Source of the DNA: a virus
Direction: 5' to 3' (one strand)
Length of the DNA: 44,051 bases
Virus record (IMG/VR): IMGVR_UViG_3300047560_000849
Span: 1 to 44,051 of that record
In this document: one piece after another, positions 2,502 through 39,997 of the stretch
How positions within the stretch are numbered: position 1 is the first letter of the stretch
Layout of the letters: each line of letters begins with the position of its first letter
Translations under genes and position numbers: made by a program
Notes under the pieces: generated by a model
The model's input: only the letters and a program-made list of their open reading frames with translations
Told to the model about the DNA's origin: nothing
The model's database searches: none

Positions 2502-2544
2502 TTTCTGTCAAATTCCCTTTGTTGTTTTTTTACTACACAAACAA

Positions 2545-2578: not shown

Positions 2579-2595
2579 CTTAGATTCTGTTGAGA

Positions 2596-3210: not shown

Positions 3211-3232
3211 TTTTGAAATTCCTTTAATAATT

Positions 3233-3251
3233 TATTTATCTAGTATTTATC
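3233..3251 (-). promoter_or_regulatory. Tandem late promoters GATAAATA x2
   Basis: Two GATAAATA boxes on minus at 3233-3240 and 3244-3251, spaced 11 nt apart, before the gene at 2899-3210. They are back to back with the plus-strand late box at 3271. Confidence 0.6.
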
Positions 3252-3270
3252 ACTTCTAGCGGAACTGTGG

Positions 3271-3278
3271 ACTAAATA
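3271..3278 (+). promoter_or_regulatory. Late promoter ACTAAATA, leaderless start
   Basis: The box is followed by TCACG (5 nt) and then ATG at 3284. By the T4 late rule (box at -13 to -6) the A of the ATG is +1, predicting a leaderless mRNA. No Shine-Dalgarno site is present. Confidence 0.6.
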
Positions 3279-3283
3279 TCACG

Positions 3284-3883
3284 ATGAACGTCAAAAGTAT
3301 GCAAGAAACAGTCGGTTCCGACGTGTATACACTAACCCACTACTTTGATACAAACGATTGCTACGACATTGTTAAGCAACGATGTGAGGAATTTTGGAAA
3401 AATGCACCGAAAGATGACAGCGCAGAGAACTATCAGTTCGGTGATGATGCAAAAGCATGGTCGCTAGGACCAATGCTTAAAAACAATGATTTTGCCGGTG
3501 GTTACACTATTTTAAGCGTAAATGATGTTCCTTGGTCGTTTGGTGGTATCAAACATTATACCGATGAAATAGCGTTAATTTTAGGAAGACATTTTTGCTT
3601 TTTCACGTTGAGACCAATGACGATTGGATTGCTAGTTCCATTTCAACTAGAGATTGCTAAAGAGCTAGGATTCAAAAAAGCGTGGATCACAATGATGGGT
3701 TACAATGACAGAATGTATAGAACTTGGCAACTAACGTCTAGTGAATACGATACTAACAGACACAAGAAAAGAGATAATATTTTGTATAAAAACACTGATT
3801 CAGTTGTAGAAAGAGTAAACAATCTCGGGAAACAAATTGTCAACTATACTGAACAATCAGTCATGGAGTGGTCATTAGAATGA
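3284..3883 (+). CDS. GNAT-like acyltransferase candidate
   Basis: 199 aa. The C-terminal half reads TLRPMTIGLLVPFQ, then LEIAKELGFKKAWITMMGYND, which resembles the beta4-alpha3-beta5 region of GNAT N-acetyltransferases, ending in an asparagine often seen there. A clear acetyl-CoA loop was not seen, so this is a fold guess. The start follows a late promoter with no leader. The stop overlaps the start of the radical SAM gene (ATGA at 3880-3883), so the two are one transcription unit and probably act together. Confidence 0.45.
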   Translation: MNVKSMQETVGSDVYTLTHYFDTNDCYDIVKQRCEEFWKNAPKDDSAENYQFGDDAKAWSLGPMLKNNDFAGGYTILSVNDVPWSFGGIKHYTDEIALILGRHFCFFTLRPMTIGLLVPFQLEIAKELGFKKAWITMMGYNDRMYRTWQLTSSEYDTNRHKKRDNILYKNTDSVVERVNNLGKQIVNYTEQSVMEWSLE

Positions 3884-5643: not shown

Positions 5644-6384
5644 CATCATTTCAGCGCATTCATTGAAGTCAACTAAATCTTCTTGACCATGCGTGTCGAT
5701 GATAAGGTGCAGTCTTGCTTCAGTTCCGTTATTATCTACCCAATGTTTGATTCCACTGTTGAAGAAAAACACAGAACCATCTGCTGGCATGTGATATAAA
5801 TGAGTTTCATCGCCTTTACTGAATCCCATAACTACGTTTTCGTTTGTAATCAAAGGGATATGATAGCGTGTGATATATGATGGATCGTAGTCTACATGCG
5901 GTTTGATTGAGAAGCCAGGGGTTAAGTATGCAAGACGCACACGTGTGATTTTACCCTTGAATTGATTTAGTATATCTTCGAACGGACCAGTGGCGTACTT
6001 GTTTCTTACTCCATAGTTTAGCTCGTCAGCTTCAGGGAGATATCTCGGATCGTTTGGATCAAGACGCTTAGTTCGTTCAAAGATATTCGTGCCATGTAAA
6101 TTAACTTTTCCACTTGCTTTTGATTCATCAAAATCAGTCAAGTATAGTTGCTTGTACTTTTCACCCTCCATGGTAGGGGCTTCGTTTTCAGTAAAAAAGT
6201 TAGTCTTACAAAATTCGTTGCTTACTAGAAATGCCTGATGTTTACTGTTTGCACTGTACTTGATATCATTGTACTTTGTGCTATCCAATAAATCGTTTTG
6301 GCGGCAATGTTCTAAAATCGCATTTACATCGACTTTGATATTGTTTAATTTAGCGACTAAGGGCAATTGTTTTCTGTTTAGCAT
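5632..6384 (-). CDS. Asp/Asn beta-hydroxylase-like 2OG oxygenase
   Basis: 250 aa. The C-terminal half carries KPHVDYD (H163, D165), RYHIPL, and GIKHWVDN (H214) with R224, the iron and 2-oxoglutarate ligands of the aspartyl/asparaginyl beta-hydroxylase family (PF05118 type). FFFNSGIKHWV is typical of this group. The N-terminal 120 residues are unassigned. The ATG stands 5 nt after a TATAAATA box, so it should be a leaderless single-gene unit. The 3' end overlaps the convergent radical SAM gene by 12 nt. The substrate is unknown; proteins or a peptide/glycan product of the same cassette are possible. Confidence 0.72.
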   Translation of the reverse strand: MLNRKQLPLVAKLNNIKVDVNAILEHCRQNDLLDSTKYNDIKYSANSKHQAFLVSNEFCKTNFFTENEAPTMEGEKYKQLYLTDFDESKASGKVNLHGTNIFERTKRLDPNDPRYLPEADELNYGVRNKYATGPFEDILNQFKGKITRVRLAYLTPGFSIKPHVDYDPSYITRYHIPLITNENVVMGFSKGDETHLYHMPADGSVFFFNSGIKHWVDNNGTEARLHLIIDTHGQEDLVDFNECAEMMLSV

Positions 6385-6389
6385 AACTG

Positions 6390-6397
6390 TATTTATA
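6390..6397 (-). promoter_or_regulatory. Late promoter TATAAATA, leaderless start
   Basis: Perfect T4 late box on minus. The spacer CAGTT (5 nt) leads straight into the ATG at 6384. The box overlaps the stop codon of the upstream gene (6393-6395). Confidence 0.65.
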
Positions 6398-6869
6398 GAA
6401 GGATAGGAATTTTGAGATTATTGAACGCTGGATCAAATATGCCAGCAGGGATATCAAGAAAGTCATGGAACTCTAAGTTATCTGTTGTGGTGCGCTGTGT
6501 TACAAACTCAACACCCTGCTCAACGTTGAATGATTTTTTATAAGCAAAATTGGAACTGGCATTTTGTCTAATTTCTTCAATCCCTCTTTCTGTTTCTGCA
6601 TCACGCTTCAGATACAAAAAATAACTATGCTTAACGGTATGTGTGTAGTCGTAAATTGCACAATTCATCACACAATCTTCTAACTTCATAAGACCCTTTA
6701 ATGCGTACATTCTATCAGGCAATGTCTCTTTGATTTCTTCAAAAAACTTACTATCAGGTCTTGTCTTTTTGTTAGTGTACCATTCTTTAACGTACACCCC
6801 GTTCTCCGTGCGCTTGTACACTTGGCATCGCAAATGCAATACCGTTAGGCTTTGAGTGACGCATTGCAT
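6393..6869 (-). CDS. Hypothetical protein, downstream part of a probable frameshifted gene
   Basis: Open frame of 158 codons. The first 15 or so residues look like off-frame translation, while from QVYKRTENGVYVKEW onward it reads like a normal charged protein. The upstream frame (6787-7125) degenerates at the same place. A +1 shift around 6830-6836 (codons ATG CCA AGT) would join the two into one protein of about 240 aa. Either this is a real or sequencing-derived frameshift, or the gene starts at ATG 6869 and overlaps its neighbour by 83 nt. No family recognised. Confidence 0.5.
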   Translation of the reverse strand: MQCVTQSLTVLHLRCQVYKRTENGVYVKEWYTNKKTRPDSKFFEEIKETLPDRMYALKGLMKLEDCVMNCAIYDYTHTVKHSYFLYLKRDAETERGIEEIRQNASSNFAYKKSFNVEQGVEFVTQRTTTDNLEFHDFLDIPAGIFDPAFNNLKIPILL

Positions 6870-7125
6870 CTTTGAATACTTCTTTAACCTGTCCTTTATC
6901 GTATAGGCAATCAGTCATTCTGGCATAGTCTTCAAAGTCTGGAAGCCAAAATGTACAGTAATATATATTATCACTATAGTATCCTTCTGTTACTTCACAG
7001 TTATCACTAAATTCTTTAGTGGTGTCTTTGATTCTATCAAACCAAGTGGGGTCAACATCAACGTGAAAGGGCACGTTAGGGTTAGGTCTAATGTAAATCT
7101 GTGTGCGTTTAATTTTGTGTATCAT
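6787..7125 (-). CDS. Hypothetical protein, upstream part of a probable frameshifted gene
   Basis: 112 codons. The ATG overlaps the upstream stop (ATGA at 7122-7125), so it belongs to the leftward operon. The N-terminus reads MIHKIKRTQIYIRPNPNVPF and the middle is rich in aromatic and acidic residues. After IAFAMPS the frame gives SVQAHGERGVR and stops, whereas the +1 frame continues as a plausible protein (see 6393-6869). No family recognised. The two pieces probably encode one cassette protein. Confidence 0.5.
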   Translation of the reverse strand: MIHKIKRTQIYIRPNPNVPFHVDVDPTWFDRIKDTTKEFSDNCEVTEGYYSDNIYYCTFWLPDFEDYARMTDCLYDKGQVKEVFKDAMRHSKPNGIAFAMPSVQAHGERGVR

Positions 7126-7841: not shown

Positions 7842-8914
7842 TTTATTAATGCCTTTTTAACTGTGTCTGCTATCATATTTACTTGGTCATCTGATAAGTC
7901 ATATCTGCATGGGATATGTAAAATTCTATTGAAATATGTTTCACTTGTAGCTTTGTAACGACTGGCGCCGGCAAACTCACTAAATGCATCGTTGAAGTAT
8001 ACAGGTCTATGACTAGAATATGATTTCACATTGTTTTCTTCTAACGCTTTACTGATTTCATTCTTATATTCAGTTAGTAATACAAATGTCTGGTGATTGC
8101 CGTTTTCATATAACTCAGCGTCTTGCATCATACCAAATACACTATAGTAATACTTTGCAATTTTTCTAGCTTTTTCAATGTTTTGTTCCAATGAACGCAT
8201 CTTGTTCATAACGATTGCCGCACTTATCGCAGTATTGGATAATTTTAATTCAGGTTCTTCAACGTTGAATGATCCATAACCATATTGTCCGTCTACATTT
8301 GTTAGACCGCAGTAACGTTGTCCCCGAAACCAATTAGAATCGTTGCCCAGTATCATACCGCCTTCTCCAGCAGTCAATGGCTTGCCGTAACTAAAACTAA
8401 TAACAGAAGTGTTTGTTGTGTCTGACACTACACACGAATTGTCCGCACGTTTCATACCAAATGCAGGTGCCGCATCTTCAATGACTATTGCTTCATGTAT
8501 CTTTCTTGTATCTACGTACCTATTATTAATATGACTAGGTATTATCGCACGTACTTTATATAAATCTAGTAAATCATACACACTTGACATATCCATCAAG
8601 CCATACTTGTCTACACGAGAGTATAACGGAATTCCACCTGCTTTGATAATCGCACTTGCAATACCAAAAAATGTTATTGGCGGCATTATTACATATTGAT
8701 TTTGTATGTTGAGTTTCTTTAGTGCAAGATAAATGCCATTAGTGCAACTACTCACAAACACACTGTCACGTCCAGTTTTGTTTTTGAATTTTTCTTCTAA
8801 TGCTTTTATGTGTCTACTGTTGATTCCGCCCAGTGTGTCAGAGGATTCGAATAATCTTCCCGCATTTTGTAAATCTTTCTGTATGTCCCCGATAGAATAG
8901 ATTTGTATTGTCAT
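7838..8914 (-). CDS. DegT/DnrJ/EryC1-family PLP aminotransferase
   Basis: 358 aa, the usual length for this family. VSSCTNGIYLAL (about 54-65) is the PLP phosphate-binding region. IEDAAPAFG holds the ring-nitrogen Asp147, and SFSYGKPLTAGEGGMI has the Schiff-base Lys178 with the family GEGG signature. These enzymes make amino sugars or aminated cyclitols for glycans, antibiotics and surface polysaccharides. It lies second in a leftward operon behind the fatty acid desaturase (ATGA overlaps). A role in building a modified sugar is possible, but no nucleotide-sugar epimerase or dehydratase is in the window. Confidence 0.85.
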   Translation of the reverse strand: MTIQIYSIGDIQKDLQNAGRLFESSDTLGGINSRHIKALEEKFKNKTGRDSVFVSSCTNGIYLALKKLNIQNQYVIMPPITFFGIASAIIKAGGIPLYSRVDKYGLMDMSSVYDLLDLYKVRAIIPSHINNRYVDTRKIHEAIVIEDAAPAFGMKRADNSCVVSDTTNTSVISFSYGKPLTAGEGGMILGNDSNWFRGQRYCGLTNVDGQYGYGSFNVEEPELKLSNTAISAAIVMNKMRSLEQNIEKARKIAKYYYSVFGMMQDAELYENGNHQTFVLLTEYKNEISKALEENNVKSYSSHRPVYFNDAFSEFAGASRYKATSETYFNRILHIPCRYDLSDDQVNMIADTVKKALIK

Positions 8915-9657
8915 TTTTTGCGAATCAAATTAATAATATAGTATCCTATATCAATTTCCCACCAGCGTTCACCGATGTTCGGTCGACTTTGATATCTATG
9001 ATGATTGTTGTGCCAACCTTCTCCCCACATCAATAACCCTAACAACGGATTGTTTGTGCTATTGTCAGGAACATTATATCTACGATATCCCAATAAAGGA
9101 GTGTGACATACGGTGTTAATTAAACTACCTGCATTCCATAATACAACTGCTGGCACAATATATAATGTCATCAATGCCCAAGTTCCACCTAATGCAAACA
9201 TCAACAATGCCCATGCTAGATTAATGTGTAGATAGTACTTGTGAAAGAATTGATGTCCTTTATCACTGATTACAGGGCTTCTGCGAATGTTGATAGGACT
9301 AAACATAGATAAGAATTGTGCCCAAACATATCCGAGAACGACAGGGCTATGTGGGTCGCCTGGTTTATCAGCATTACCATGATGCATACGATGTGCGGCT
9401 GTCCATGTAAGAGAGCTACCAGTCAATCCCAAAGTAGCACAGAAAGTACCAAAATATTCAAAAAACTTATTTGTCTTAAAACTCTTATGTGTTAACAGTC
9501 TATGATATGTGATGCTCATACCAATACCACCAGTAAAGAAATAAACTAGAAACACAAGTAAAAAATCAGTCCACGCTGGTCCTGATAGTAACCACAACAC
9601 AGCTAAGATATGTGCGATTAGTTGAAGTGCAAATAATTTTTTGGCGGTTAGTAGCAT
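8911..9657 (-). CDS. Delta-9-type fatty acid desaturase
   Basis: 248 aa integral membrane di-iron enzyme. The three histidine boxes are HRLLTH (52-57), HRMHH (89-93) and HNNHH (216-220), the pattern of acyl-CoA/acyl-lipid delta-9 desaturases. Hydrophobic stretches near 10-30, 30-50, 140-160 and 160-180 fit the four-helix topology. It would insert a double bond in host acyl chains and change membrane fluidity. ATG 9657 is chosen because a GATAAATA box ends 5 nt before it; a TTG at 9672 would lie upstream of the predicted +1. It is the first gene of the operon that runs to 6393. Confidence 0.9.
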   Translation of the reverse strand: MLLTAKKLFALQLIAHILAVLWLLSGPAWTDFLLVFLVYFFTGGIGMSITYHRLLTHKSFKTNKFFEYFGTFCATLGLTGSSLTWTAAHRMHHGNADKPGDPHSPVVLGYVWAQFLSMFSPINIRRSPVISDKGHQFFHKYYLHINLAWALLMFALGGTWALMTLYIVPAVVLWNAGSLINTVCHTPLLGYRRYNVPDNSTNNPLLGLLMWGEGWHNNHHRYQSRPNIGERWWEIDIGYYIINLIRKK

Positions 9658-9662
9658 AAAAC

Positions 9663-9670
9663 TATTTATC
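9663..9670 (-). promoter_or_regulatory. Late promoter GATAAATA, leaderless start
   Basis: Box on minus, spacer GTTTT (5 nt), then ATG at 9657. It drives the desaturase-aminotransferase operon and is back to back with the plus-strand box at 9687. Confidence 0.6.
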
Positions 9671-9686
9671 AATGGCTCTTTTTGTC

Positions 9687-9698: not shown

Positions 9699-10250
9699 AT
9701 GAATTTTGATAGCTTTAGTCACGGACAAATTAAAAGTAAGTTATGGTTATGTGAAGAATTAGAAAAGTACATACCCAAAAATAGTAATGTGAAAATATTA
9801 GGTAGCTGGTACAATATACTTGCGTTTATGTTGCTAACGAGAAATCCAAATAATTACAAGTCAATCGAAGGCATTGATATCAACCCAGATGTACAGAGTA
9901 TTGCAGATAAAATTTGCAATTATTGGATTGCAGAAAATCAATCAGTAACAAACACATTAGGTGACGCAAATAATGTCGAATACAGTGATACCCAAGTTGT
10001 CATTAACTGTAGCCCCGAACACATGGACAACACAGATTGGTACAAAAAAGTCCCCGAAGGGACTGTTGTGTGTATTCAATCAATTAGCATACATGATCCA
10101 TTGTATCCCTGGTTAATCACTACTCCGCATTACGGTGTTGAAGATATGAAAACAAAATATCCCATGAGTGCTATTAATTATAGCGGTCAAATTCGCATTG
10201 ACTATGGCTCATGGGGATATGATCGATATATGCTAATTGGTATTAAATAG
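9699..10250 (+). CDS. Class I SAM methyltransferase-like protein
   Basis: 183 aa from the ATG next to the late promoter. A Rossmann pattern is visible: VKILGSWYNILAF (motif I-like, but with GSW instead of GxGxG), then IEGIDINPDVQSIADK (acidic residue binding the SAM ribose), GDANNVEY, and VVINCSPEHM (motif IV-like). The substrate is unknown. It stands alone on the plus strand, back to back with the desaturase operon and convergent with AhpD (8-nt overlap). It may also be a related Rossmann protein that has lost catalysis, since the glycine loop is poor. Confidence 0.6.
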   Translation: MNFDSFSHGQIKSKLWLCEELEKYIPKNSNVKILGSWYNILAFMLLTRNPNNYKSIEGIDINPDVQSIADKICNYWIAENQSVTNTLGDANNVEYSDTQVVINCSPEHMDNTDWYKKVPEGTVVCIQSISIHDPLYPWLITTPHYGVEDMKTKYPMSAINYSGQIRIDYGSWGYDRYMLIGIK

Positions 10251-10782
10251 CAATTTTACCAATTGCATTAACTACTGCGGCAATGCGACCAATTGCCATC
10301 AATTCTTGCGTAGTCATGCCCTCTTTCTTTAATGTATCATAGTGTGCTTTAACACAGAAATGACATTTACCGATAATACTTGCGGCCAATGAATACATTT
10401 CAAATTTCTTCTTAGATACACCACCATGTGTAGCATACGCATTCATACGTAATCCTGCAGGAAGACCTTTCATGCCCTCATCAGCGGCCATTTCAACGAA
10501 TGGATACCAAACGTTGTTTTGACCCATGAGACTTGCGGCTGTCTTTGCGGCTTCACGTTCTGCCTCTGCTGAAAACAACGGACTGTTGTGTTCAATTTCA
10601 AATGCTAGCCCACCGTTACCTGCGGCTAATGCAGATACATACGCAATTGCATGAGTATCAACTGGATCTAAACCTGAACGATTGATAACTGCATCAATGT
10701 TTAATTTAATATCTTTACTGTGATCTGGGATACTATCTTTTACAGATTGTACCCAGTCACCATTAATTGTGATTGGTTGCAT
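10243..10782 (-). CDS. ahpD: AhpD-like alkylhydroperoxidase
   Basis: 179 aa, carboxymuconolactone decarboxylase/AhpD fold. E128, C140, C143 (CHFC) and H147 have the same mutual spacing as the catalytic Glu-Cys-Cys-His relay of mycobacterial AhpD, which reduces AhpC disulphides and is itself recharged by a lipoyl protein. The start is the ATG that overlaps the AhpC stop (TAATG at 10780-10784), not the frame extension upstream, which runs inside ahpC. An AhpC-AhpD pair is a complete peroxide-reducing unit apart from the electron donor. Very unusual in a T4-like phage. Confidence 0.88.
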   Translation of the reverse strand: MQPITINGDWVQSVKDSIPDHSKDIKLNIDAVINRSGLDPVDTHAIAYVSALAAGNGGLAFEIEHNSPLFSAEAEREAAKTAASLMGQNNVWYPFVEMAADEGMKGLPAGLRMNAYATHGGVSKKKFEMYSLAASIIGKCHFCVKAHYDTLKKEGMTTQELMAIGRIAAVVNAIGKIAI

Positions 10783-11327
10783 TATAGTGTGTCTCCACCT
10801 ATAGGACGTGAGCATGGGCATAGTTCGCCAGTTTGCAATGCGTCTAAGATACGCAATGTTTCGTCTGGTGAACGACCAACATCTAAGTTGTTTACTGTAA
10901 CGTGTTGAATAACGTTATCAGGATCAACAATGAATGTAGCACGTAGTGCGGCACCTGCTGGCTTGTAGAAGATACCTAGTTGTTCTGCTAGACTGTTCTC
11001 GTCACGTGCAACGTCAGCGAATGACCAACTATTTGTTTTCTTTAGGTCTTCGTGTGCATTACGCCATGCTAACTTACAGAATTCGTTATCTGTAGAACCA
11101 ATCAATAATACAGCATCACGGTCAGCAAAGTCTTGGTTCAACTTATCGTATGCTACGATTTCTGTAGGGCAAACGAATGTGAAGTCTTTTGGATAGTATA
11201 CGATAACTTTCCATTGACCTTGGAAGTCTTTATCTGTGATAGTTTGGAATGCGCCTTCTGGTGTCAATGCGCCTGGCTTAACGCCTGTAACTGCAAAACT
11301 TGTGATTTTATCGCCGATTGTTTTCAT
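10782..11327 (-). CDS. ahpC: AhpC-type peroxiredoxin
   Basis: 181 aa, 2-Cys peroxiredoxin that reduces hydroperoxides. The peroxidatic Cys53 lies in DFTFVCPTEI, and the C-terminal ELCPCSRP gives resolving cysteines C170/C172, resembling AhpD-partnered AhpC proteins. The C-terminus ends soon after this motif. A Shine-Dalgarno AAAGGA lies before the ATG, and ahpD follows with a 1-nt overlap. The pair would protect infected cells or phage enzymes such as the di-iron and Fe-S proteins encoded nearby from peroxide; that is inference. Confidence 0.92.
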   Translation of the reverse strand: MKTIGDKITSFAVTGVKPGALTPEGAFQTITDKDFQGQWKVIVYYPKDFTFVCPTEIVAYDKLNQDFADRDAVLLIGSTDNEFCKLAWRNAHEDLKKTNSWSFADVARDENSLAEQLGIFYKPAGAALRATFIVDPDNVIQHVTVNNLDVGRSPDETLRILDALQTGELCPCSRPIGGDTL

Positions 11328-11830: not shown

Positions 11831-12130
11831 TTAGTCGTTTGATGGGGAGAGACCGTTGCTATGCTTATCGGTTGATTTGTCTAAGTCTTGGAACAAACGT
11901 TTTTCTTGTGCTGTTAGTCTATCTTTGTGTGTTACACGTGGATTACCGCACAAATAGCATTTTGGATTTCCGCAATCCATAGCGTGATGTTTAGCTAATC
12001 GATGTTTCTGTTTGATGTTCTGTTGATTGAATGAACCGTGACTTTTTGCAATTTTAACTTGTCTTGCAATTGCTACGTCTGTTTTATGACGGCGGCGACT
12101 GTTAAGGAATTTTGCTTGTTCGTTAGCCAT
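11831..12130 (-). CDS. Conserved-type small zinc-binding protein, 99 aa
   Basis: Basic N-terminal half (SRRRHKTDVAIARQVKIAK), then KHHAMDCGNPKCYLCGNPR with a Cys cluster (C-x4-C-x2-C) and upstream histidines that could bind zinc, and a polar tail. The ATG lies inside the end of iscU (8-nt overlap), so the two are co-translated. No named family. The Cys motif and the fusion-like coupling to iscU suggest a possible metal or Fe-S role, but that is a guess. Confidence 0.6.
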   Translation of the reverse strand: MANEQAKFLNSRRRHKTDVAIARQVKIAKSHGSFNQQNIKQKHRLAKHHAMDCGNPKCYLCGNPRVTHKDRLTAQEKRLFQDLDKSTDKHSNGLSPSND

Positions 12131-12509
12131 TTGTTTTCTTTCTGTAATCTTCTACTGCGGCTTTGATTGCATCTTCTGCAAGGATTGAGCAGTGGATTTT
12201 AACTGGGGGGAGGGCGAGTTCTTCGGCAATGTCTGAGTTTTTGAGGGCATTTGCTTCGTCAATTGTTTTTCCCTTAACCCATTCTGTGACCAAACTGCTT
12301 GAAGCAATTGCCGACCCGCACCCATATGTCTTAAATTTAGCATCTTCTATGATTCCTGTTAAAGGGTTTACTTTGATTTGTAATTTCATTACGTCCCCGC
12401 AAGCAGGGGCTCCAACCATCCCTGTCCCTACATATTCTTCGTCTTTCGCAAAACTCCCAACATTTCTAGGGTTTTCGTAATGGTCAATAACTTTGTCGCT
12501 GTAAGCCAT
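12123..12509 (-). CDS. iscU: IscU iron-sulphur cluster scaffold
   Basis: 128 aa, full length. It closely follows proteobacterial IscU: the N-terminus MAYSDKVIDHYENPRNVGSF differs from the E. coli protein by one residue as I recall it. The cluster ligands C37, D39, C64, H106 and C107 are present, as is the LPPVK motif that HscA recognises. It would accept sulphur from host IscS and build clusters for Fe-S proteins. A TATAAATA box (12528-12535) and AGTAGGAGAC precede the ATG. No other isc gene is in the window, so it must rely on host partners. The close similarity to bacterial IscU suggests recent acquisition or strong constraint. Confidence 0.95.
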   Translation of the reverse strand: MAYSDKVIDHYENPRNVGSFAKDEEYVGTGMVGAPACGDVMKLQIKVNPLTGIIEDAKFKTYGCGSAIASSSLVTEWVKGKTIDEANALKNSDIAEELALPPVKIHCSILAEDAIKAAVEDYRKKTNG

Positions 12510-16401: not shown

Positions 16402-16707
16402 TTACCCCATTACAATTTTTTTATCTGGAATTTTAAGTCCAGTTGTCGCTTCAATATACTTCATCTTAACTGAATCTTCAGTTAAGCCATATAAAGAAAC
16501 ACTAGATGTATTTAGTCTAATTTCACCGTCGGGTTCAGCAGTGAAAATGCTAGGAATTAGTTGCATTCCGTGCTGTCCCGGTGCGATTGAAACAGGGTTT
16601 TCTATTCGAACTGTGTTTCCACCTGATTCAATTACTTTAGCGACCATTTCTTCGCCTGAGTTTAATTTAAATGTATATACTTGATTTGTAGATAGTACTA
16701 ATTGCAT
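16402..16707 (-). CDS. Sm/Hfq-fold-like phage protein
   Basis: 101 aa. YTFKLNSGEEMVAKVIESGGNTV followed by RIENPVSI and later SSVSLYG resembles the strand pattern of Sm-like proteins, with the Sm1 motif (xxLxxGxxxxGxVxxxxxxxxxL). Small Sm-like proteins of this type occur in T4-like environmental phages, with unknown RNA partners. The start abuts the glutaredoxin stop (16707). The call is structural only. Confidence 0.55.
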   Translation of the reverse strand: MQLVLSTNQVYTFKLNSGEEMVAKVIESGGNTVRIENPVSIAPGQHGMQLIPSIFTAEPDGEIRLNTSSVSLYGLTEDSVKMKYIEATTGLKIPDKKIVMG

Positions 16708-16937
16708 TATGCGCTTTCTGTTAATTTTGTTTTGAGTTCGTTGAACCCACCAATCAATTCTCCATCCAAGAAGATTTGTGGTACTGTACGAGCATTTGGT
16801 ACTGCTTCTAATAATTCTTCTTTTGTGTATCCGTCTCCGATTTTCTTTTCTTCAAACTGAATACCTTTACTTGTTAACAATGCCTTTGCTTGGTCGCAAT
16901 AAGGACAGTGATACTTACTCCATACAACTGCTTTCAT
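16707..16937 (-). CDS. grx: Glutaredoxin
   Basis: 76 aa. Active site CPYC at 11-14, cis-proline motif TVPQIF at 51-56, and the GG of LIGGFNE at 63-64. It would donate electrons to the phage ribonucleotide reductase next to it, as T4 thioredoxin/glutaredoxin NrdC does. AAGGAAAAATAAA precedes the ATG. It lies 11 nt after nrdB in the same leftward run. Confidence 0.93.
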   Translation of the reverse strand: MKAVVWSKYHCPYCDQAKALLTSKGIQFEEKKIGDGYTKEELLEAVPNARTVPQIFLDGELIGGFNELKTKLTESA

Positions 16938-18055: not shown

Positions 18056-19261
18056 TTAAAATTGGTCGTGTTCTGTAGAAGTTTTGTTTGCAACAGTAGA
18101 TGTGGCACCAACTGCTTCACTAATCAAGTCAAAGTATCCAACACCAACTTCACGCTGATGTTTAACTGTTGTGAAGCCACGTTCTTGTGCGGCAAACTCA
18201 CGTTGTTGCATTTCTGAATAGCCAGCCATACCACGTTCTTTGTATACTTCTGCTAATTCAAATGTAGCTAAGTTTACACTATGAAAGCCCGCAAGTGTAA
18301 TGAATTGGAACTTATAACCCAATTCTCCTAGTTCACGTTGGAATGTTTCACATTCTTCTACTGACAAGAACTTGCGCCAGTTAAAACTTGGAGAGCAGTT
18401 GTAGGCAAGCATTTGATCTGGGAACTGTGCGTGAATGGCGTCTGCAAATTTCTTGGCTTGCTTAATGTCTGGGGTGGAAGTTTCAAACCAAAGCAAATCA
18501 GCAAAAGGAGCATAAGCCAAGCCACGAGCGATACAAGCATCAATGCCATTCCTGAATTTGTAAAATCCTTCTTCTGTGCGTTCATTTATAATAAAATCCT
18601 TATCTAATGGGTCATGGTCTGATGTAATTAATGTTGCGGCTTCTGCATCTGTTCTCGCCATAATAACCGTGTCTACTCCTGCAACATCAGCCGCTAATCG
18701 TGCGGCGTTCAATGTACGAATCATTTGACTTGTTGGTACTAATACTTTGCCACCTAAGTGACCGCATTTCTTTTCACTTGCTAGTTGGTCTTCAAAGTGA
18801 ACACCGGCTGCACCCGCTTCAATCATATGTGTCATTAACTCATATGCGTTCAATGCACCACCGAAGCCTGCTTCTGCATCTGCTACGATAGGCAAGAAAT
18901 AATCTGTTGTTACATTACCTTCACTGTGTTCAATTTGGTCAGCACGACGGAATGCGTTGTTGATGCCTTTCACTACACGAGGAACACTGTCAACAGGATA
19001 TAGACTTTGATCTGGATATGTTGTATTGCTTGTGTTGTTTGCGGCTGCTACTTGCCAGCCACTTAAGTAAATTGCTTTCAACCCTGCTTTAGCGTGTTGT
19101 ACAGCCATTTGACCGTTATATGCACCTAGTGTGTTGATATAGGGTTCGTTAGCTAATAGTTCACGCAATTTGTATGCGCCTCGTTTTGCTAATGTGTGTT
19201 CGATCTGTACACTACCTTGTAGCTTCTGTACCGTTTCTTTTGTATAGTTTCTTTTTTTCAC
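18056..19261 (-). CDS. aceA: Isocitrate lyase
   Basis: 401 aa. It cleaves isocitrate to glyoxylate and succinate, the first step of the glyoxylate shunt. Present are YLSGWQVAA (65-73), the metal site [10 protein letters not shown] (126-135), the catalytic loop KKCGH (164-168, C166), GKVLVPT, and NCSPSFNW (288-295), with a complete C-terminus (STEHDQF). KKCGH rather than KRCGH argues for isocitrate lyase over methylisocitrate lyase. The GTG start at 19261 follows AAGGACACACAC, 10 nt after the nrdA stop; the longer frame from 19315 lies inside nrdA. The N-terminus is about 20 aa shorter than E. coli AceA. No malate synthase is in the window. Confidence 0.95.
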
Positions 19262-19271
19262 GTGTGTGTCC

Positions 19272-21587
19272 TTAAAGTTTACATGCTTCACAATCTTCTT
19301 CCGCATCAAAATCAATTGCTTCTAGCGGAGCTTGTGTTTCTTCTTCTGATTTACTACCTTGCTTATTTATTAAGCTGTAATAAAATGTTTTTAGTCCCCA
19401 CATATGTGATTGCATTAAGTTCTTAGCAATCAACGTTGTAGGCACTTTTCGATTTGGGAAATGTGCAGGATTATAGAAAGTGTTAGTTGAAATAGATTGG
19501 TCTACGTATGCTTGGATAACAGCCGCAGTTTTCAGATATCCATCACAATCAGATTGATCCCACATTAACTGATACTTGTTCTTCAATTTATGATATTCAG
19601 GCACAACTTGAGTGAATGACCCGGCTTTACTTTCTTTTACTGTAATTAAACTCATTGGCATTTCAATACCATTTGTAGAGTTAATCACAACACTACTAGA
19701 TTCAACAGGGGCAACTGCCATTTGCGTTGCATTACGCACACCATAACTTCTCATCTTTGCACGTAAACCTTCCCAGTTTAGTTCTGGTGTAAAGTCTGCT
19801 AACTCATTGACTCCCTTCGCTCTGCGTTCCCAAGGGAAAACACCTTTACCATAATATGTTTGGTCACTGTTTTTACAACGTCCTCTTTCTTCTGCCAATT
19901 CAACAGAAGCCTCAGTTAGATAGTATGCTTGATGTTCCATCCAACTCTTAACTTCAGCTAATGCATCTTTTTCACCGTACTTGAAACTGCGCTTTGCATG
20001 CCAATAAGCCAAGTTAGTGATGCCGATTCCAATAGGGCGAATTTCTTCATTAGACAGTCTACTTTGAATACTTAGAAAATCTTGGTAATCCAAAATGTTA
20101 TTAAGACTGCGATGCAAAATGCGGCAAGCACGGCGCATGTCTTCCGGATTTCTAAAGGCACCCCAGTTGATACTGCCGAGCGTACACAAAGCGATGCGAC
20201 CATCAGCATCATCCAAACGTTTAAAAGGTTTTGTAGGTAGTAAGATTTCACAGCAAAGGTTACTCTGATAAATTGTATGGTATTCGGGGTCAAACGGACC
20301 TTGGTTCATAACGTTGTCTATGAATACCAAATAGATACGACCAGTGTCAGTGCGTTCTTTTAATATGCCGCCTTTGAATACTTCTTCGGCTGACATTGTT
20401 TTCTTTCTTAAACCTTTTTGCTTTTCATACTTGACATACAGTTCTTCAAAAAGCTCAGTGTTTTGATAGAAGGCTTCGTAAAGATCCGGGCACTCATTGG
20501 GGTCAAAGAAAGTGATATTCTCTTTGTTTTTAAATCGTCTCCAAAAGAAACTTGACAGAACCACGCCGTAGTCCATATGACGGACTCGTGTCTCTTCCGT
20601 ACCCTGATTGTTTTTGAGTACAATAAGGTCATCAAACTGGTGATGCCAAATGGGATAAAAAACCGTAGCTGACGCATTGCGAATACCACCTTGTGAACAT
20701 GAACGTAAATCACCAAACCATTTCTTTAAGAATGGGATCATACCTGTGTGCATAATTTCGCCACCTCTGATGGGACTGCCAAGGGGCCTCAAACGACCAA
20801 TCTCTAAACCTATCCCTGCCCGTTTAGAGGCATACTTAGCCATCATCTCACCAGATGCGAAAATACTATCTAAATCATCATCACTACGAATCAATACGCA
20901 AGAGCTAAATTGCTTAGTAGGTGTTCCCAATCCCGCAAGCACAGGTGTTGCGAGTGTGAACAATCCGTCGCTTGCACAGTTGTAGTATTCTTTGATGTAT
21001 CGCATTCTTGCGTTGTTTGGTTCTTCTTTGTGGAAGACAGTTGCAGAAGCGACCATATACCGAATTTGTGGAGTTTCATATATTTCCTTTGTGCTACGAT
21101 TTTTAACTAGATATTTCTCAATCAGTTGTTCGATTGCCGCATAAGAATATTGCTCATCCTTTTCATGCTCAAGCATGTCATTCATCTTGTTCCAATCTTC
21201 TTCACTATACCATTCTAATAGTTCGCTAGTGTACAGACCGGTGGCAACGTTCTTTTTTACAATTTCATAAAGGTGCGGAACCTCATAGTCACCGTATACG
21301 TCTTTACGTAGCATTGAAAGACGCATCTTACCTGCTACATATTGATAATTAGTGTGCCCAACATCTGGATTATGTTCTACGTCAATCAAATCTACAATTG
21401 CTCGTAGTGTGATTTCATCGATTTCTTTAGTAGTGATTCCATCATAAAAATGAAGTTGAGATTTAATCTCAATCATCGATGGACTTACATCTGCTATACC
21501 ACTACATACTTTCGCCACTTGTGCTTGCCATTTCTCTAACATTAACGGCTCTCTTTTACCGTTTCGCTTAATGACGTTTATGTTCAT
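19272..21587 (-). CDS. nrdA: Class Ia ribonucleotide reductase, alpha subunit
   Basis: 771 aa. It reduces ribonucleotides for phage DNA synthesis. The catalytic N-x-C-x-E is seen as SNLCCEI (about 440), the redox partner Cys in ALCTLGSIN, the first-half Cys in [10 protein letters not shown], and the C-terminal redox pair in CEACKL (766-771). The N-terminal 90 residues resemble an ATP-cone ([13 protein letters not shown]). GGTGAAGC precedes the ATG, which overlaps the upstream stop (ATGA). Full length with no visible defect. Confidence 0.95.
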
Positions 21588-22030
21588 GCTTCACCTATTT
21601 GTTGTTTTATTTTTTGTATATTCAAACTACTGATTATTTTAAAGTCTTTTAGATTATTACTTAGCACCGTATCGGGCCAGTAATTAAGTATATATTTTGC
21701 GTTGTCAACCAGGACTAATACAAATTCTTCACTATTATCGTCGGTTGCGATACAAAAGTCAATGTCTGTTACACCCGTTAACAACAATGTATATATCATT
21801 CCCAATCCTCTTGCTACGTTGCAATAGATATTCTCATTTAACAATTCCCAGGGTCCTGGCCAATTGTCAATGTCAAATGGATGAAGATGATGGTTGACTA
21901 GAGGCGCATATTGCCACCATTTATCGATTAATTGACATTTGGTTTCTAAATCTGCGTTTTCTAGGGATTTGCGTAAGTCGTGCCAACTTCTAAGTCTGGC
22001 TTCAAAGTTCAATTGGAATACATTAATCAC
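21584..22030 (-). CDS. Hypothetical phage protein, leaderless GTG start
   Basis: 148 aa. The N-terminal half holds LRSWHDLRKSLENAD, then WWQYAPLVNHHLHPFDIDNWPGPWELL, then YCNVARGLGMIYTLLL. I have a sense that similar proteins occur beside nrd genes in T4-like environmental phages, but no function is known to me. The start codon is GTG, exactly 4 nt after a TAAATA box, with no leader. An ATGA overlap couples it to nrdA, so it heads the nrdA-aceA-nrdB-grx run. Confidence 0.6.
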   Translation of the reverse strand: MINVFQLNFEARLRSWHDLRKSLENADLETKCQLIDKWWQYAPLVNHHLHPFDIDNWPGPWELLNENIYCNVARGLGMIYTLLLTGVTDIDFCIATDDNSEEFVLVLVDNAKYILNYWPDTVLSNNLKDFKIISSLNIQKIKQQIGEA

Positions 22031-25836: not shown

Positions 25837-27708
25837 TTATGCTCCTCGCACCATGCAGCCATTGAACCAAGTAATAGCCGGATTATTAACTGCGGTAACA
25901 GTTACACTTCCACCAGACCCCTGTTGAACATATATTTCAAAATAGTCAGTGGATCCATTGGCATAGACCAATGAATTAACAGTCATTGCCCAGAAACTAC
26001 TAGCAATTTGAGTTCCACTTTGGTTTGTACCACGTTTGTATTCTGATCCGTTTTTGTAAAGAATAATCATCATTTCACCGGTGCCGCTAGCGCCATCTAA
26101 TCTAACTTCAGCGTTTAATTGATAGTAACCTTCTACTGTGGGAGTGAATCTTGAACTGGCATAGTTGCTGTTGGTATCAAATTCTTCTGTTTGGAACAAA
26201 ACTTTTTGTTGACTACCTGAGGTTATAGTTTGTAATGTCGCATTTGCGTAGGCACTAAATGCCGGTCCGTTGACTGCTTGCTTGCCGCTAACTTGATACT
26301 GACCAGCAATACTTACATTACCTGTGTCTGTTAATGACAATAATGTTCCACTATAAGCACTGTTAATGATTTCGAATGCACCTGTGCTGTTTAGTCGGAA
26401 TGATTTATTTGGGTTGGTTGCACCACCAGAAGTATTTGTAGCTTTCAAAAAGTCTGCGTATCCTGTGCCGCCTTGTGTGTTGGCTGCGCTAATTGTAATA
26501 CCATAACCTGTAGCAGATGCTGGCGTATAAGTAATAGCTACATTCCCATTAGGTATACTTAAATTACCATGTGTAGCATTACCAGTAGAACTCATAATGC
26601 CGGCGGTGATAATATTACCACCAGTGATGTTACCAGTAGCAGTAATCAATCCACCTGTAGTAATGTTACCATGTGTTGCATTGCCAGTAGAACTCATTAT
26701 ACCGGCGGTGATAATATTACCACCAGTAATATTACCTGTAGCTGTTATTAACCCTGCAGTACCAATATTACCTACGTTAGCATTTCCCGTAGCACTTACT
26801 GCACCACCGGTAACTAAGTTACCTGCTGTTACATTCCCGGTTGCTGTTATTAAACCAGCAGTACCTATGTTGCCAATATTAGCATTACCTGATACAGAAA
26901 GAGATGTTAGTGTTCCAGTGCTTGTAATGTTTGGTTGTGCATTTGTATAAATTGTACCTGCTACTAATGCATTGCTAACTTGACCTGATACGTTAGCACC
27001 TGCTACACTATTTGCGGTAGCGGCATAATTTACTTGACCTGATACGTTAGCACCTGCTACACTACTTAACCCACTTCCATCTCCGCTAAAATACGGTGAT
27101 GTTAATAATCCTGTTACGTTATTGAATGTAAATCCCGCATTAGCACCAAACACCCCTGCATCATTGAATTGAACCTGTGTGTTTGCACCACTTGGATTGG
27201 CACTACCGCCACCACCTGTTTGTGCGGTCCAAGTTAGATTACCAGTACCATCTGTTTGTAATACGTATCCATTAGTACCACCGGTAATAATAACATTCGC
27301 TACTGATGCTGTCAATGATGTAACTGGGCTACCAACATCTTCTAACACACCGTCTATCTGAAATGTACCATCTATTGTAATAGGTTGTGAAAACAATCCT
27401 TGATGGTTAGCAGTTACATAATAAGTTTCACCTGCATTGATTACGTACGGCATCGGGGAAGTAATCGATGTATTGCCACCTCCACCACCTGCTGCCCAAC
27501 TTAGATTACCTGCGCCATCGGTAGTTAGCACGTAACCATCAGTACCGCCGGTGATAGTTACATTCGCTACATCACCTAAATCAGTATTACCTGTGACCGT
27601 TAAAGTTGGTGTGCTAACGTTACCATTCTCGTCAATGATAACTACTATATTTCCTGCACCGTCATCGACGGAGAAACCACCAACTGAATTTAACGATTTA
27701 ATTGCCAT
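25837..27708 (-). CDS. Repeat tail-fibre-like protein 2 with C1q/TNF-like tip
   Basis: 623 aa. The N-terminus MAIKSLNSVGGFSVDDGAGN is shared with the next two genes upstream. The middle has the same 17-residue repeats (NANIGNIGTAGLITATGN type). Residues about 490-623 look like a C1q/TNF jelly-roll (GPAFSAYANATLQ, RFTPTVEGYYQLNAEVRL, IILYKNGSEYKRG, FEIYVQQ, TWFNGCMVRG), a trimeric module used as a receptor-binding tip. It begins 1 nt after the previous stop with no Shine-Dalgarno site, so translation is coupled. Confidence 0.75.
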   Translation of the reverse strand: MAIKSLNSVGGFSVDDGAGNIVVIIDENGNVSTPTLTVTGNTDLGDVANVTITGGTDGYVLTTDGAGNLSWAAGGGGGNTSITSPMPYVINAGETYYVTANHQGLFSQPITIDGTFQIDGVLEDVGSPVTSLTASVANVIITGGTNGYVLQTDGTGNLTWTAQTGGGGSANPSGANTQVQFNDAGVFGANAGFTFNNVTGLLTSPYFSGDGSGLSSVAGANVSGQVNYAATANSVAGANVSGQVSNALVAGTIYTNAQPNITSTGTLTSLSVSGNANIGNIGTAGLITATGNVTAGNLVTGGAVSATGNANVGNIGTAGLITATGNITGGNIITAGIMSSTGNATHGNITTGGLITATGNITGGNIITAGIMSSTGNATHGNLSIPNGNVAITYTPASATGYGITISAANTQGGTGYADFLKATNTSGGATNPNKSFRLNSTGAFEIINSAYSGTLLSLTDTGNVSIAGQYQVSGKQAVNGPAFSAYANATLQTITSGSQQKVLFQTEEFDTNSNYASSRFTPTVEGYYQLNAEVRLDGASGTGEMMIILYKNGSEYKRGTNQSGTQIASSFWAMTVNSLVYANGSTDYFEIYVQQGSGGSVTVTAVNNPAITWFNGCMVRGA

Positions 27709-34001: not shown

Positions 34002-35198
34002 TTATTGGAATGTCAAGTTTTGAACAGCGATTTCACCAACATAGTCAGCCGCGTTACCGAAGCTAGATGCAGTGTTTGTCAATTCGATGTAACCATAACG
34101 TGTCATAAATGATACGACTGGTTCGAATGTTGAAGGATCTAGAACAACACCAGAACTCATCAATGGAATGTATGGGCAATAGAATGCTGCCGCATCAGTT
34201 TCAGATGAACCCTTGTAACCTACTAATACAGGTGTTGTGTCTGGAGCGTAAGAGTCAACGAAAACTCTCATCGCACCGTTCAATGTACCAACGAACTTAG
34301 TGTTTGTTGGAGCTTCGAATGTACCTTCTGTAGTACGAGCGAAAGCAGAAGTAGTTGCAGATTGCAATACTGTCAATGCCGCGCTAGATACAACAGCCCA
34401 GTTACCAGCACCACGGCGTGTGCGTTGTGCGATCAAGTTAGCAACACGGTTGATTAGAACAGCTAAGGCAGCGTGTTCGTCACCAACGTAAGTAGCTGTA
34501 CCAGATACTGTAGCTTGGTTGTATGTGTACTCAGTTGTAGCTAATGTACGTAGAGACAATAAGATTTCTTGGTCGATTTCAGCAGTAATTTCTTGTGCTA
34601 AAGCGGCCATGATTTCTGCTTCAACGTCAATACCATGTTGGCTTTGAGCGTCTTGAGCCGCTTCAAATGTCCAACGTGCTTGCAACTTACGGCTCTTAGC
34701 TTCAACAGCTTGACGTAAGATTTGTACGCTGATTTGCTTACCACCGTTGCCTTCTAAGGCAGCAGTGTCGTTACCTGTGTAGTAACTTGTTGTGTCGTCA
34801 GCATATGGTGTACGTGAATATGCTTGAGCAATTTTGAATGGGCTCAATGCTTCTTCACCAGCTGTAACGCTAGTTTGTGCCGCGCTATTGTCTGTTAAAG
34901 ACTGTGCGTAGCGTACACGTAATGTGTGAATCTGACCAACTGGACCTGTCATTGGCTGAACGCCTACCAACTCGTTAGCGATAACTGTTGGCATTACACG
35001 ACGGATAACTGGAAGAATAACGCGGTTTAGAGTAGCGATATTACCTGCAGTTGTTGTACCTGCTGAAGATTCCTTCAATAGTGCTTTCTTAGTGTTTTCT
35101 AAGATAACACCCATAGTTGAGCGGCGAGTACCTTTTAAGCCTTCTAGTAGGGCTTCTTTAGTCTCGTCCCAACGGCTTTCTAATAGAACTTGTGACAT
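34002..35198 (-). CDS. 23: Major capsid protein, T4 gp23-like
   Basis: 398 aa. Recognised by RVILPVIRRVMPTVIANELVGVQPMTGPVGQI, ARWTFEAAQDAQSQHGID and the C-terminal AAFYCPYIPLM with TRYGY. The N-terminal about 43 residues should be cut off by the gp21 protease; LLKE|S at 40-44 is a good candidate for the LxE cleavage site. AGGAGAAATATAA precedes the ATG and a UUCG terminator follows. It is shorter than T4 gp23 (521 aa), as usual in cyanophage-type relatives. Confidence 0.95.
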   Translation of the reverse strand: MSQVLLESRWDETKEALLEGLKGTRRSTMGVILENTKKALLKESSAGTTTAGNIATLNRVILPVIRRVMPTVIANELVGVQPMTGPVGQIHTLRVRYAQSLTDNSAAQTSVTAGEEALSPFKIAQAYSRTPYADDTTSYYTGNDTAALEGNGGKQISVQILRQAVEAKSRKLQARWTFEAAQDAQSQHGIDVEAEIMAALAQEITAEIDQEILLSLRTLATTEYTYNQATVSGTATYVGDEHAALAVLINRVANLIAQRTRRGAGNWAVVSSAALTVLQSATTSAFARTTEGTFEAPTNTKFVGTLNGAMRVFVDSYAPDTTPVLVGYKGSSETDAAAFYCPYIPLMSSGVVLDPSTFEPVVSFMTRYGYIELTNTASSFGNAADYVGEIAVQNLTFQ

Positions 35199-36350: not shown

Positions 36351-36986
36351 TTATTTAATTTTGAGGTCCTTGATGAGGCGCATTACTTCCTCTTTCAAGT
36401 ACTTCTCTACTTTCTTGTCGCCCTGTGCTTCTTTTGCAATATCCAACAACTTATGACCATGACGCATGTTCATCACGCCTTCATAAATTGCTTTAGGATA
36501 TGCATTAGGTGCACTTGGTTGAGCAACAATATCCACGGTGACTATTTCAAAGTCACTGACACGGCCGTCATAGTCGTTCACGTTACCGCTACCACGACTA
36601 GATACGCCAAGTTTGACACCACTCTCCAACATTGTAGACACTAACTGTCCCATTGGAGTTGGTAAAATCTTTAATTTGCCGAAGCCATTAGCGCCGTCCA
36701 TCCACATTTGAGTAATCATATGTGACACACGGTCTAAATTAATCTTTAAATCATCTGGGTGATCTACTTCGCCTAAGACTGAATAGCCACCTGTAATTTG
36801 TTCGTTGAGAGCATTAACAGCAGTTTCAATTTCAGAAACAGGGTAAATACGCTCATTGGCGTTTTTTACCCCACCCTGAATGAAGATACCCTTCATATAA
36901 AGGGACTTCTTACTACCTTCACCTTCACTTTCGACAACCATAGAGGCTCTGTCGAAAGTTAGATGCTCTTTGAGATACAAAGCCAT
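36351..36986 (-). CDS. 21: Prohead protease, T4 gp21-like
   Basis: 211 aa. LGEVDHP (71-77, H76) and KLGVSSRGSG (125-134, Ser129/Ser130) fit the catalytic His and Ser regions of T4-type prohead proteases; DFEIVTVDIVAQPSAPNA is a family signature. It cleaves scaffold, core and capsid proteins after LxE/IxE-type sites. GAGAGAAA precedes the ATG. Lies between the core protein gene and gp22, as in T4. Confidence 0.93.
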   Translation of the reverse strand: MALYLKEHLTFDRASMVVESEGEGSKKSLYMKGIFIQGGVKNANERIYPVSEIETAVNALNEQITGGYSVLGEVDHPDDLKINLDRVSHMITQMWMDGANGFGKLKILPTPMGQLVSTMLESGVKLGVSSRGSGNVNDYDGRVSDFEIVTVDIVAQPSAPNAYPKAIYEGVMNMRHGHKLLDIAKEAQGDKKVEKYLKEEVMRLIKDLKIK

Positions 36987-38197: not shown

Positions 38198-39997
38198 TTA
38201 CATTCCTACGCCTGCTGGTGCTGGCATTCCGCCTGCTTGAGCACCATTACCACCTACGACTGGGCCAGCAACGCCGCCTTCTGCGCCTGCAGCCATTTCA
38301 TCACCTGTTGGCTGAGCTTCAATGTCGTCCATTGTTTGCATATCTGTTTCAATGTCACCAGCAGAGACACCGACGCTACGCAAATCACTACCTGCAGGTT
38401 CAAGGTCTTGATCTTTGTTATGTTCTTCACGCCATAATTGTTCGTTCTTCGTGATTTCTTCTTCAGTTAATCCCAAGAAGCGTTCCATAGCGAAACGTTT
38501 ACTAATATAAGGGAACGCTTCCATTGAAGTAAATGTACCAACTCGTGCGTTATCTAATTCACTTTGACGATATGCGGCAAAGTTTTGTGGGGGGTTGAAT
38601 TCTAAAGTGAAAAGACCTGAATCAATATTGAAACCTCTCCAACGCAAGAATAACTTAAATTCTTCGTCTAGTTTCTGGCTCATGTATTTCTGTAAACGCT
38701 TGCAATATTCATTGAATCTAAATTCTTGAATCATCGCTGTCCCAACACGGCCATCAGTTAATGGTGTTGTATTGTCATCAGGGCCAGTTGGTAAGTATGA
38801 GCTAGGAACTCTTAAACCACGTGCCAATCTGTTGTTGAAGTATTTCAAGTCATCAATTTCACCTAAGTTTTGACCACCGGGTAATACTTCAACACTTGAA
38901 CCACGACCATCAGCAGTAACCGGGAAGAAATAATCTTCGTTCATTGATAACGGGTTGTATGTTGCATCAACAATAGCTTGGCCACCTTGGACGCTTGGAA
39001 TACGTCTTTGGTGAATTTCATTCTTAATGCGCTCAACGAATGCCATAGCCATATGACTTGGCATGTTACCAACGTCAATCTTAAACATTCTACGCTCAGG
39101 GGCACGTTGTACACGATAGATAAGAACAGCATCTTCAAGCAATTCTTTTTGCTTATAAACTTTAAAGATGTTTTCCAAGATTGATTGACCGAACGGCCAG
39201 AATCTATCCATACCTTCAGTCAAACTCAAATGAACAATGTGTTTTGCATCTACTGCGCTCTCACTTTGGCCCAATGTGAATCGTGATCCAGTCGTATTAT
39301 ACGGCATGCTTGGCACTGTATAACCGTTTGTGTTTGCTCCGCCACCTGTACCACCTAAACCAGTAGCAGGATTAGCCGCAAAGTCTGTGTTTGTTTTTTG
39401 TGCTACAGTTAAATTCTGTAAATTAATGTTAATGTCTTTGATAACATACTGTTCAGGCTTTTTACCTTCACTCTCGTTGACAATAACTTTAATGACTTTA
39501 ACCATGTCGATCCAATATAACTTGAAGTTTTCTGGATCTCTGACGAATACTTGATCGCCATATTTTACGGTATTACGGAATATTTTGAACACTCTAGTGT
39601 CAAATTCATTTAACTTACACCACTGAATTAATTGAGTTTTTAACAATTCTACTTCATGTGGAGTAGGATCTTCTGAGAATTGTAGACTAAACGGTGTGTT
39701 GTTTTGTTCGTTTTTCTGAGTACTGAATTCAGCGATAATATCTAAACATGCGTTGATTTCAGCATCAACGTCCATCATTTCATATTGGTTATAACGTTCT
39801 AATCTGTTTGGGTGACCTGTATAGACTTCAGGTAATCTACTCATGTAGTTTTTATAACCCATCTCAGCGTTGTTCCAACCACCTGTAGATGAGCCATTCA
39901 TACCAGGGCTTCCATTCCATGCACCACTGTTGCTATTTGCACCAGAGATTGGACTTGAAAAACCTGCTTTGTTCGTAAAACGTTTCTTGTATGTCAT
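38198..39997 (-). CDS. 20: Portal protein, T4 gp20-like
   Basis: 599 aa. Recognised by YMSRLPEVYTGHPNRLERYNQYEMMD, DVDAEINACLDIIAEFSTQ, RNTVKYGDQVFVRDP, LSLTEGMDRFWPFGQSILE, YRVQRAPERRMFKIDVGN and LGEIDDLKYFNNRLARGLRVP. It forms the dodecameric portal at the head vertex. The C-terminal 60 residues are Gly/Ala/Met-rich. An ACTAAATA box lies 18 nt before the ATG. Confidence 0.95.
   Translation of the reverse strand: MTYKKRFTNKAGFSSPISGANSNSGAWNGSPGMNGSSTGGWNNAEMGYKNYMSRLPEVYTGHPNRLERYNQYEMMDVDAEINACLDIIAEFSTQKNEQNNTPFSLQFSEDPTPHEVELLKTQLIQWCKLNEFDTRVFKIFRNTVKYGDQVFVRDPENFKLYWIDMVKVIKVIVNESEGKKPEQYVIKDININLQNLTVAQKTNTDFAANPATGLGGTGGGANTNGYTVPSMPYNTTGSRFTLGQSESAVDAKHIVHLSLTEGMDRFWPFGQSILENIFKVYKQKELLEDAVLIYRVQRAPERRMFKIDVGNMPSHMAMAFVERIKNEIHQRRIPSVQGGQAIVDATYNPLSMNEDYFFPVTADGRGSSVEVLPGGQNLGEIDDLKYFNNRLARGLRVPSSYLPTGPDDNTTPLTDGRVGTAMIQEFRFNEYCKRLQKYMSQKLDEEFKLFLRWRGFNIDSGLFTLEFNPPQNFAAYRQSELDNARVGTFTSMEAFPYISKRFAMERFLGLTEEEITKNEQLWREEHNKDQDLEPAGSDLRSVGVSAGDIETDMQTMDDIEAQPTGDEMAAGAEGGVAGPVVGGNGAQAGGMPAPAGVGM

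Follow-up and report, generated by a model that had tools for sequence, protein, structure and literature searches.

The stretch of DNA analysed here (the window) is a 44,051-bp fragment, recorded in IMG/VR, of a freshwater-type phage. On its minus strand, a gene for a probable AceA-type isocitrate lyase (ICL) lies within the ribonucleotide reductase genes, in the order nrdA, ICL, nrdB and glutaredoxin (Table 1). The ICL reading frame opens with a GTG codon at 19259-19261 and runs without internal stops. As the first-pass annotation had described, it stands between nrdA and nrdB with its own Shine-Dalgarno sequence, separated from the upstream nrdA by a gap of 10 nt; its stop codon is followed by the start of nrdB after 3 nt. 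The protein encoded directly upstream of nrdA has no match in Pfam or PHROGs.

Table 1 Features of the ICL locus and of the remainder of the window, with the basis of each assignment
Feature	Coordinates	Strand	Basis
ICL gene (AceA-type), 401 aa, GTG start	18056..19261	-	NF011645, PF00463, 20 ligand/catalytic positions
Shine-Dalgarno sequence AAGGA of the ICL gene	19269..19273	-	Sequence; overlaps nrdA stop codon, 7 nt to GTG
nrdA, class Ia ribonucleotide reductase large subunit, 771 aa	19272..21587	-	PF02867 377.6 bits, phrog_84 889 bits
nrdB, ribonucleotide reductase small subunit, 367 aa	16949..18052	-	PF00268 139.9 bits, phrog_86 376 bits
Glutaredoxin, 76 aa, same gene run as nrdA-ICL-nrdB	16707..16937	-	PF00462 55.4 bits
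148-aa protein directly upstream of nrdA	21584..22030	-	Position kept in relatives
IscU-type Fe-S scaffold	12123..12509	-	TIGR01999 221.4 bits (cut-off 192.4)
Fatty acid desaturase	8911..9672	-	PF00487 57.7 bits
Major capsid protein gp23, jumbo T4-like type	34002..35198	-	PF07068 332.6 bits
Head maturation protease gp21	36351..36986	-	phrog_207 212.7 bits
Portal protein gp20	38198..39997	-	phrog_213 358.3 bits

By sequence comparison, the protein belongs to the AceA-type isocitrate lyases and is predicted to cleave isocitrate. It scores 685.8 bits against the NCBIfam equivalog NF011645 over residues 3-401 (cut-off 562), 544.5 bits against TIGR01346 (cut-off 275.9) and 347.5 bits against Pfam PF00463 (cut-off 26), and among solved structures it is matched best by bacterial isocitrate lyases, aligned over residues 4-401. 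The 15-residue catalytic loop and the NCSPSFNW motif pointed out in the first-pass annotation are intact, and all 20 positions compared, taken from the KKCGH loop, SGW, the Mg-binding Asp, Arg, NCSPS and the Thr ligands, are identical to those of E. coli AceA. The first ~22 residues of bacterial ICLs are missing, a loss shared with the ICL of phage C48C1. An AlphaFold model of moderate confidence (pLDDT 73) matches the same solved ICLs, which supports the fold only. No PHROGs family matching the ICL was found.

The AceA-type identity was thus upheld by the PF00463 search, by the equivalog cut-off and by a tree of phage ICLs, bacterial AceA and E. coli PrpB that separates ICL from PrpB. Some other enzyme of the ICL/PEP mutase superfamily, such as methylisocitrate lyase, is a highly improbable alternative and was rejected as the main identity of the protein. 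The protein does match the PrpB model TIGR02317, but at 118.1 bits, a weak match of the kind expected within the superfamily and well short of the 354.4-bit cut-off, whereas the ICL equivalog cut-off is passed. Likewise, the match to solved PrpB spans only ~180 residues, compared to the full-length, high-scoring match to solved ICLs, and E. coli PrpB stays outside in the tree as a long outgroup branch while the window ICL groups with AceA. Some ICLs, for example those of mycobacteria, possess both isocitrate and methylisocitrate lyase activities, so a side activity on methylisocitrate is possible.

The description of the source as a T4-like phage stands as far as T4 relatedness is concerned, with gp23, gp21, gp20 and a T4 baseplate gene present in the window, but it is too broad, since gp23 narrows the assignment to the jumbo T4-like lineage. 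The nearest isolate capsids are those of the jumbo T4-like phages Vibrio phage 2.275.O, PA5oct and PBECO4 (64-67% identical), in which, unlike in the window, no ICL was found by tblastn. The gp23 proteins of large IMG/VR contigs are 76-97% identical to that of the window; the values for ICL-bearing contigs of 260, 374 and 338 kb are 93%, 80% and 78%, respectively, and 97% is reached by a contig whose nrd gap is without ICL. These identities make a jumbo phage the most likely source of the window. As to the host, the window IscU reaches 88% identity to its Burkholderiales counterparts versus at most 53% in the few Alphaproteobacteria compared, a weak lead toward Burkholderiales as the host order.

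Searching viral contigs with the window protein yielded 192 confirmed viral relatives, the best 80 of which are 89-96% identical to it; a second search, which used a phage alignment headed by the C48C1 protein, confirmed at least 455 viral ICLs. All phage ICLs in the tree form one clade (SH-aLRT 98) with two subclades (100 each), clade A containing the window ICL and clade B that of phage C48C1. Among 80 clade A loci, ICL lies between nrdA and nrdB in 42 IMG/VR contigs and between nrdB and glutaredoxin in 11 loci, and in both arrangements it is always codirectional with the nrd genes. It directly follows nrdA in 29 of the 80 loci and is directly followed by nrdB, as in the window, in six. In a further setting, at another site, ICL stands beside a fatty acid desaturase (20/80). 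Clade B ICL does not adjoin nrd. The junctions on either side of the window ICL, which the first-pass annotation had proposed to verify, are real: the same nrdA-ICL and ICL-nrdB junctions occur in dozens of contigs from other metagenomes. The gene also sits among phage genes in several independent genomes, namely the window, the 42 nrdA-ICL-nrdB contigs and the complete phage C48C1. An assembly chimera of phage nrd genes and a bacterial aceA, for which no supporting point was found, can be dismissed in view of these shared junctions, of the lack of any bacterial ICL above 67% identity among the matches listed and of the GC3 of ICL (0.31), which matches that of nrdB, gp23 and the portal gene.

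In these jumbo T4-like phages, the nrdA-nrdB gap is an insertion hot spot. In many of the loci whose NrdA is most similar to that of the window (88-90% identical), nrdA and nrdB meet at an empty junction of ~12 nt, and only 4 of the 76 closest NrdA loci in which nrdB is also visible (intact nrdAB) contain ICL, so ICL is optional.

Across the nrd loci of these phages, the gap holds class II aldolase-like genes, IscU/IscA, an alternative oxidase (AOX), ICL or many ORFs without an assigned function, or is reduced to 0-13 nt. An example is locus L320 (NrdA 2394-4703, NrdB 8123-9220), with window-like nrd genes and an AOX in the gap; others are found among L249-L328. A class II aldolase/adducin-type protein (PF00596, ~211-217 aa) recurs beside phage nrd genes (for example, L056:1557-2192) and scores far below every NCBIfam cut-off. 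In locus L031, nrdA is seemingly split (3697-5076 and 5947-6876) by an insert of ~870 bp, perhaps an intron or a homing gene, in which a 235-aa ORF is found.

The ICL gene bears the marks of being kept by purifying selection. Every one of the 158 viral ICLs compared has the same residue as E. coli AceA at each of the 20 active-site positions. For the minority of pairs in which dS is not saturated, the median dN/dS amounts to 0.057 (clade A) and 0.061 (clade B). Together, these two observations make it very likely that the enzyme is active in most of these phages. They also contradict the idea that ICL is a neutral passenger carried by recombination at the nrd hot spot: the hot spot takes many genes, and ICL is both patchy and mobile, as a passenger would be, but neither the selection signs nor the tight spacing of 10-12 nt and the ribosome-binding site of its own that recur in many lineages would be expected of one, which leaves this reading very improbable.

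In the tree, the phage ICL clade falls among Alphaproteobacteria with moderate support (93 or less). A pattern-based scan of 84,980 species genomes gave, among the matches listed, no bacterial ICL more than 67% identical to a phage ICL; this distance, and the clade that phage ICLs form on their own, led to the rejection of a recent capture from the host. Within the phages, the histories of ICL and nrd differ. The NrdB tree splits the ICL carriers into two groups with a support of 100, a split that is rejected by the ICL tree (p-AU 1.3e-5, at least 6 changes), and the window ICL clusters with ICLs from phages whose nrd genes are of the other type. This conflict indicates that ICL moves between phages and has done so repeatedly into the nrd hot spot. 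Taken together, the trees and identities portray ICL as an old phage gene family that is exchanged between jumbo T4-like lineages as a single-gene cassette, rather than a recent host pick-up.

The observation that no malate synthase is visible holds for the annotation of the window and extends to its relatives: none of 43 ICL-bearing virus records, among them the complete circular C48C1, and none of 8 controls gave a match to malate synthase (PF01274), whereas control bacterial genomes did. Aconitase and serine hydroxymethyltransferase (SHMT) are both absent from 19 ICL-bearing records. A phage-encoded completion of the shunt (aceBA) was therefore rejected, with neither malate synthase (43 records) nor aconitase (19 records) available, and so was a phage-encoded glycine route, with SHMT absent from the 19 records. 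Among 60 sampled Burkholderiales genomes, malate synthase is present in 39 and a full ICL in 34. The desaturase and the Fe-S scaffold of the window are both real, the former matching PF00487 and the latter an IscU above the model cut-off. However, their proposed part in a broader metabolic takeover is weakened because IscU/IscA genes adjoin nrd just as commonly in relatives that have no ICL, and because only 2 of the closest 80 homologues of the ICL-adjoining desaturase have ICL in the flank examined. A functional set of desaturase, Fe-S scaffold and ICL was consequently not upheld as specific.

The statement that ICL had not been reported in T4-like phages did not survive a literature search, and a phage ICL in a T4-like genome is not new. 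Viral aceAB was listed in Pacific Ocean viromes in 2013 (Hurwitz, PMC4053976), an aceBA operon was reported in 2017 from a 179-kb genome with T4-like structural genes (Nishimura, PMC5332604), and viral ICLs were listed as auxiliary metabolic genes under the Ross Ice Shelf in 2023 (PMC10721903) and in the Qiangyong proglacial lake in 2026 (PMC12783922). Like the window gene, the Pacific genes are viral aceA for which a role in the glyoxylate shunt is proposed, but they are reported at the gene-family level from photic marine samples, without the genome context shown for the window (PMC4053976). TARA_ERS478052_N000008 (PMC5332604) also has a viral ICL in a genome with T4-like structural homologues; compared by description only, its ICL is paired with malate synthase, whereas the window ICL stands alone in nrdA/nrdB. 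In the excerpts concerned, neither gene order nor mobility is described for the Ross Ice Shelf and Qiangyong ICLs (PMC10721903; PMC12783922), and the Qiangyong excerpt lists aceA and nrdA together as genes traced by the authors to phyla other than that of the host (PMC12783922). Moraphages (PMC12619734) were considered as a possible match and set aside, with glyoxylate, desaturase and ribonucleotide reductase unmentioned there.

A further relative is phage C48C1 (OQ984149, Kyanoviridae in NCBI), a complete, circular T4-like genome. Its ICL, annotated as hypothetical, is 63% identical to that of the window and belongs to the sister subclade, and like other ICL-bearing relatives the phage is without malate synthase. 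Unlike the window, C48C1 is a standard-sized T4-like phage with a capsid nearest to those of Methylophilales and Pelagibacter myophages, has its ICL ~27 kb from nrdAB and carries an AOX. Nothing useful on C48C1 was found in the literature. The nrd-ICL cassette as a recurrent arrangement, the movement of ICL from one jumbo phage to another, a monophyletic ICL family free of malate synthase and the AOX companion seem to be undescribed in the open-licence literature.

The reading we prefer, with a probability of roughly 0.6, is that a phage-made ICL, produced together with ribonucleotide reductase, draws host isocitrate into the glyoxylate bypass, the gene being a member of the old mobile phage family and lodged in the nrd hot spot; in this account we infer enzyme activity, the timing of expression, the change in flux and the host. 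The nrdA/nrdB/glutaredoxin hot spot is presumably expressed when nucleotide demand is high, and ICL would be made along with the phage ribonucleotide reductase. The enzyme would then cleave host isocitrate to succinate and glyoxylate in competition with isocitrate dehydrogenase, such that carbon would bypass both CO2-releasing steps of the TCA cycle. Succinate would feed succinate dehydrogenase and respiration as well as C4 precursors, and glyoxylate would pass mainly to the host malate synthase, with some possibly going to glycine. In a host without malate synthase, the bypass could not close. The account fits the response of HP1 virocells, in which host aceA and aceB are up ~3-fold, as the most induced TCA-linked genes, with a phage glutaredoxin expressed simultaneously (PMC7082346).

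A rather unlikely alternative takes glyoxylate as the product of use, from which host transaminases would supply glycine and thereby one-carbon units toward purine and dTMP synthesis; this would make ICL in effect a nucleotide-supply gene and would explain its place in the nrd cluster. The repeated codirectional placement with nrdA, nrdB and glutaredoxin speaks for it, as does the lack of malate synthase in the 43 records, but the 19 records searched for SHMT offer no phage enzyme for such a route. Furthermore, the nrd location by itself says little, because the same gap accepts unrelated genes (class II aldolase, IscU/IscA, AOX), and neither the fifth of clade A ICLs that adjoin a desaturase nor clade B, which is not beside nrd, would share the proposed link.

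Less probable still, and doubtful for the window, is a role in respiration, in which succinate would drive succinate dehydrogenase and a terminal oxidase would burn the quinol, with phage AOX as the sink in clade B. Of 81 clade B loci, 17 have an AOX gene (PF01786) no more than 2.5 kb from ICL; AOX occurs anywhere in 8 of 14 large clade B records, C48C1 included, and one AOX occupies the nrdA-nrdB gap of a phage with nrd genes like those of the window (L320). However, none of the 16 ICL records of clade A contains AOX, nothing respiratory was seen in the window, and ICL occurs in the flank examined of only 8 of the 80 closest AOX loci (best 80 of 428). The two genes therefore recur together but not exclusively, and an obligatory AOX-ICL pair was not upheld on the same count.

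AOX genes are widespread in viral contigs, with 428 confirmed by one scan (for example, L139:8551-9192 and L351-L430); that of C48C1 (L083), at 26249-26818, is annotated as hypothetical. The open-licence literature yielded no paper describing such a phage AOX. A 112-aa, probably membrane-located protein without a Pfam match (TM112; L139:7308-7646) is encoded close to ICL at 23 of the 81 clade B loci and close to AOX at 26 of 80 AOX loci (best 80 of 428).

Beyond the preferred bypass reading, we tentatively consider that T4-related phages may have domesticated ICL as an ancient, phage-only, single-gene mobile cassette free of malate synthase, which would enter the ribonucleotide reductase cluster in jumbo phages and settle beside AOX in pelagimyophage-like relatives. 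If this were true, isocitrate use in infected cells would be rewired in a manner unlike the textbook glyoxylate cycle, with ICL tied directly either into dNTP synthesis or into a respiratory outlet built by the phage. The absence of malate synthase separates running the glyoxylate cycle from making succinate and glyoxylate, and AOX in the sister clade provides a concrete respiratory hypothesis. Phage ICLs, so far single entries in gene lists, become a defined family of at least several hundred viral copies, intact and strongly selected, with a recurrent genomic address and movement between lineages that can be traced. Which central-carbon step limits phage replication becomes testable, because the insertion has been repeated naturally and the empty sites in close relatives serve as controls.

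Elsewhere in the window, a 591-aa B12-binding radical SAM protein (3868-5643, plus strand) shows weak similarity to C-methyltransferases of the KedN5 type, at 113.8 bits against a cut-off of 700, and an AhpD-like member of the carboxymuconolactone decarboxylase family (10243-10821, minus strand) scores 113 bits against TIGR00777, below the 192-bit cut-off. Four tRNA genes (Gln, Glu, Ala and Gln) lie on the minus strand at 169-2126, near one end of the contig.
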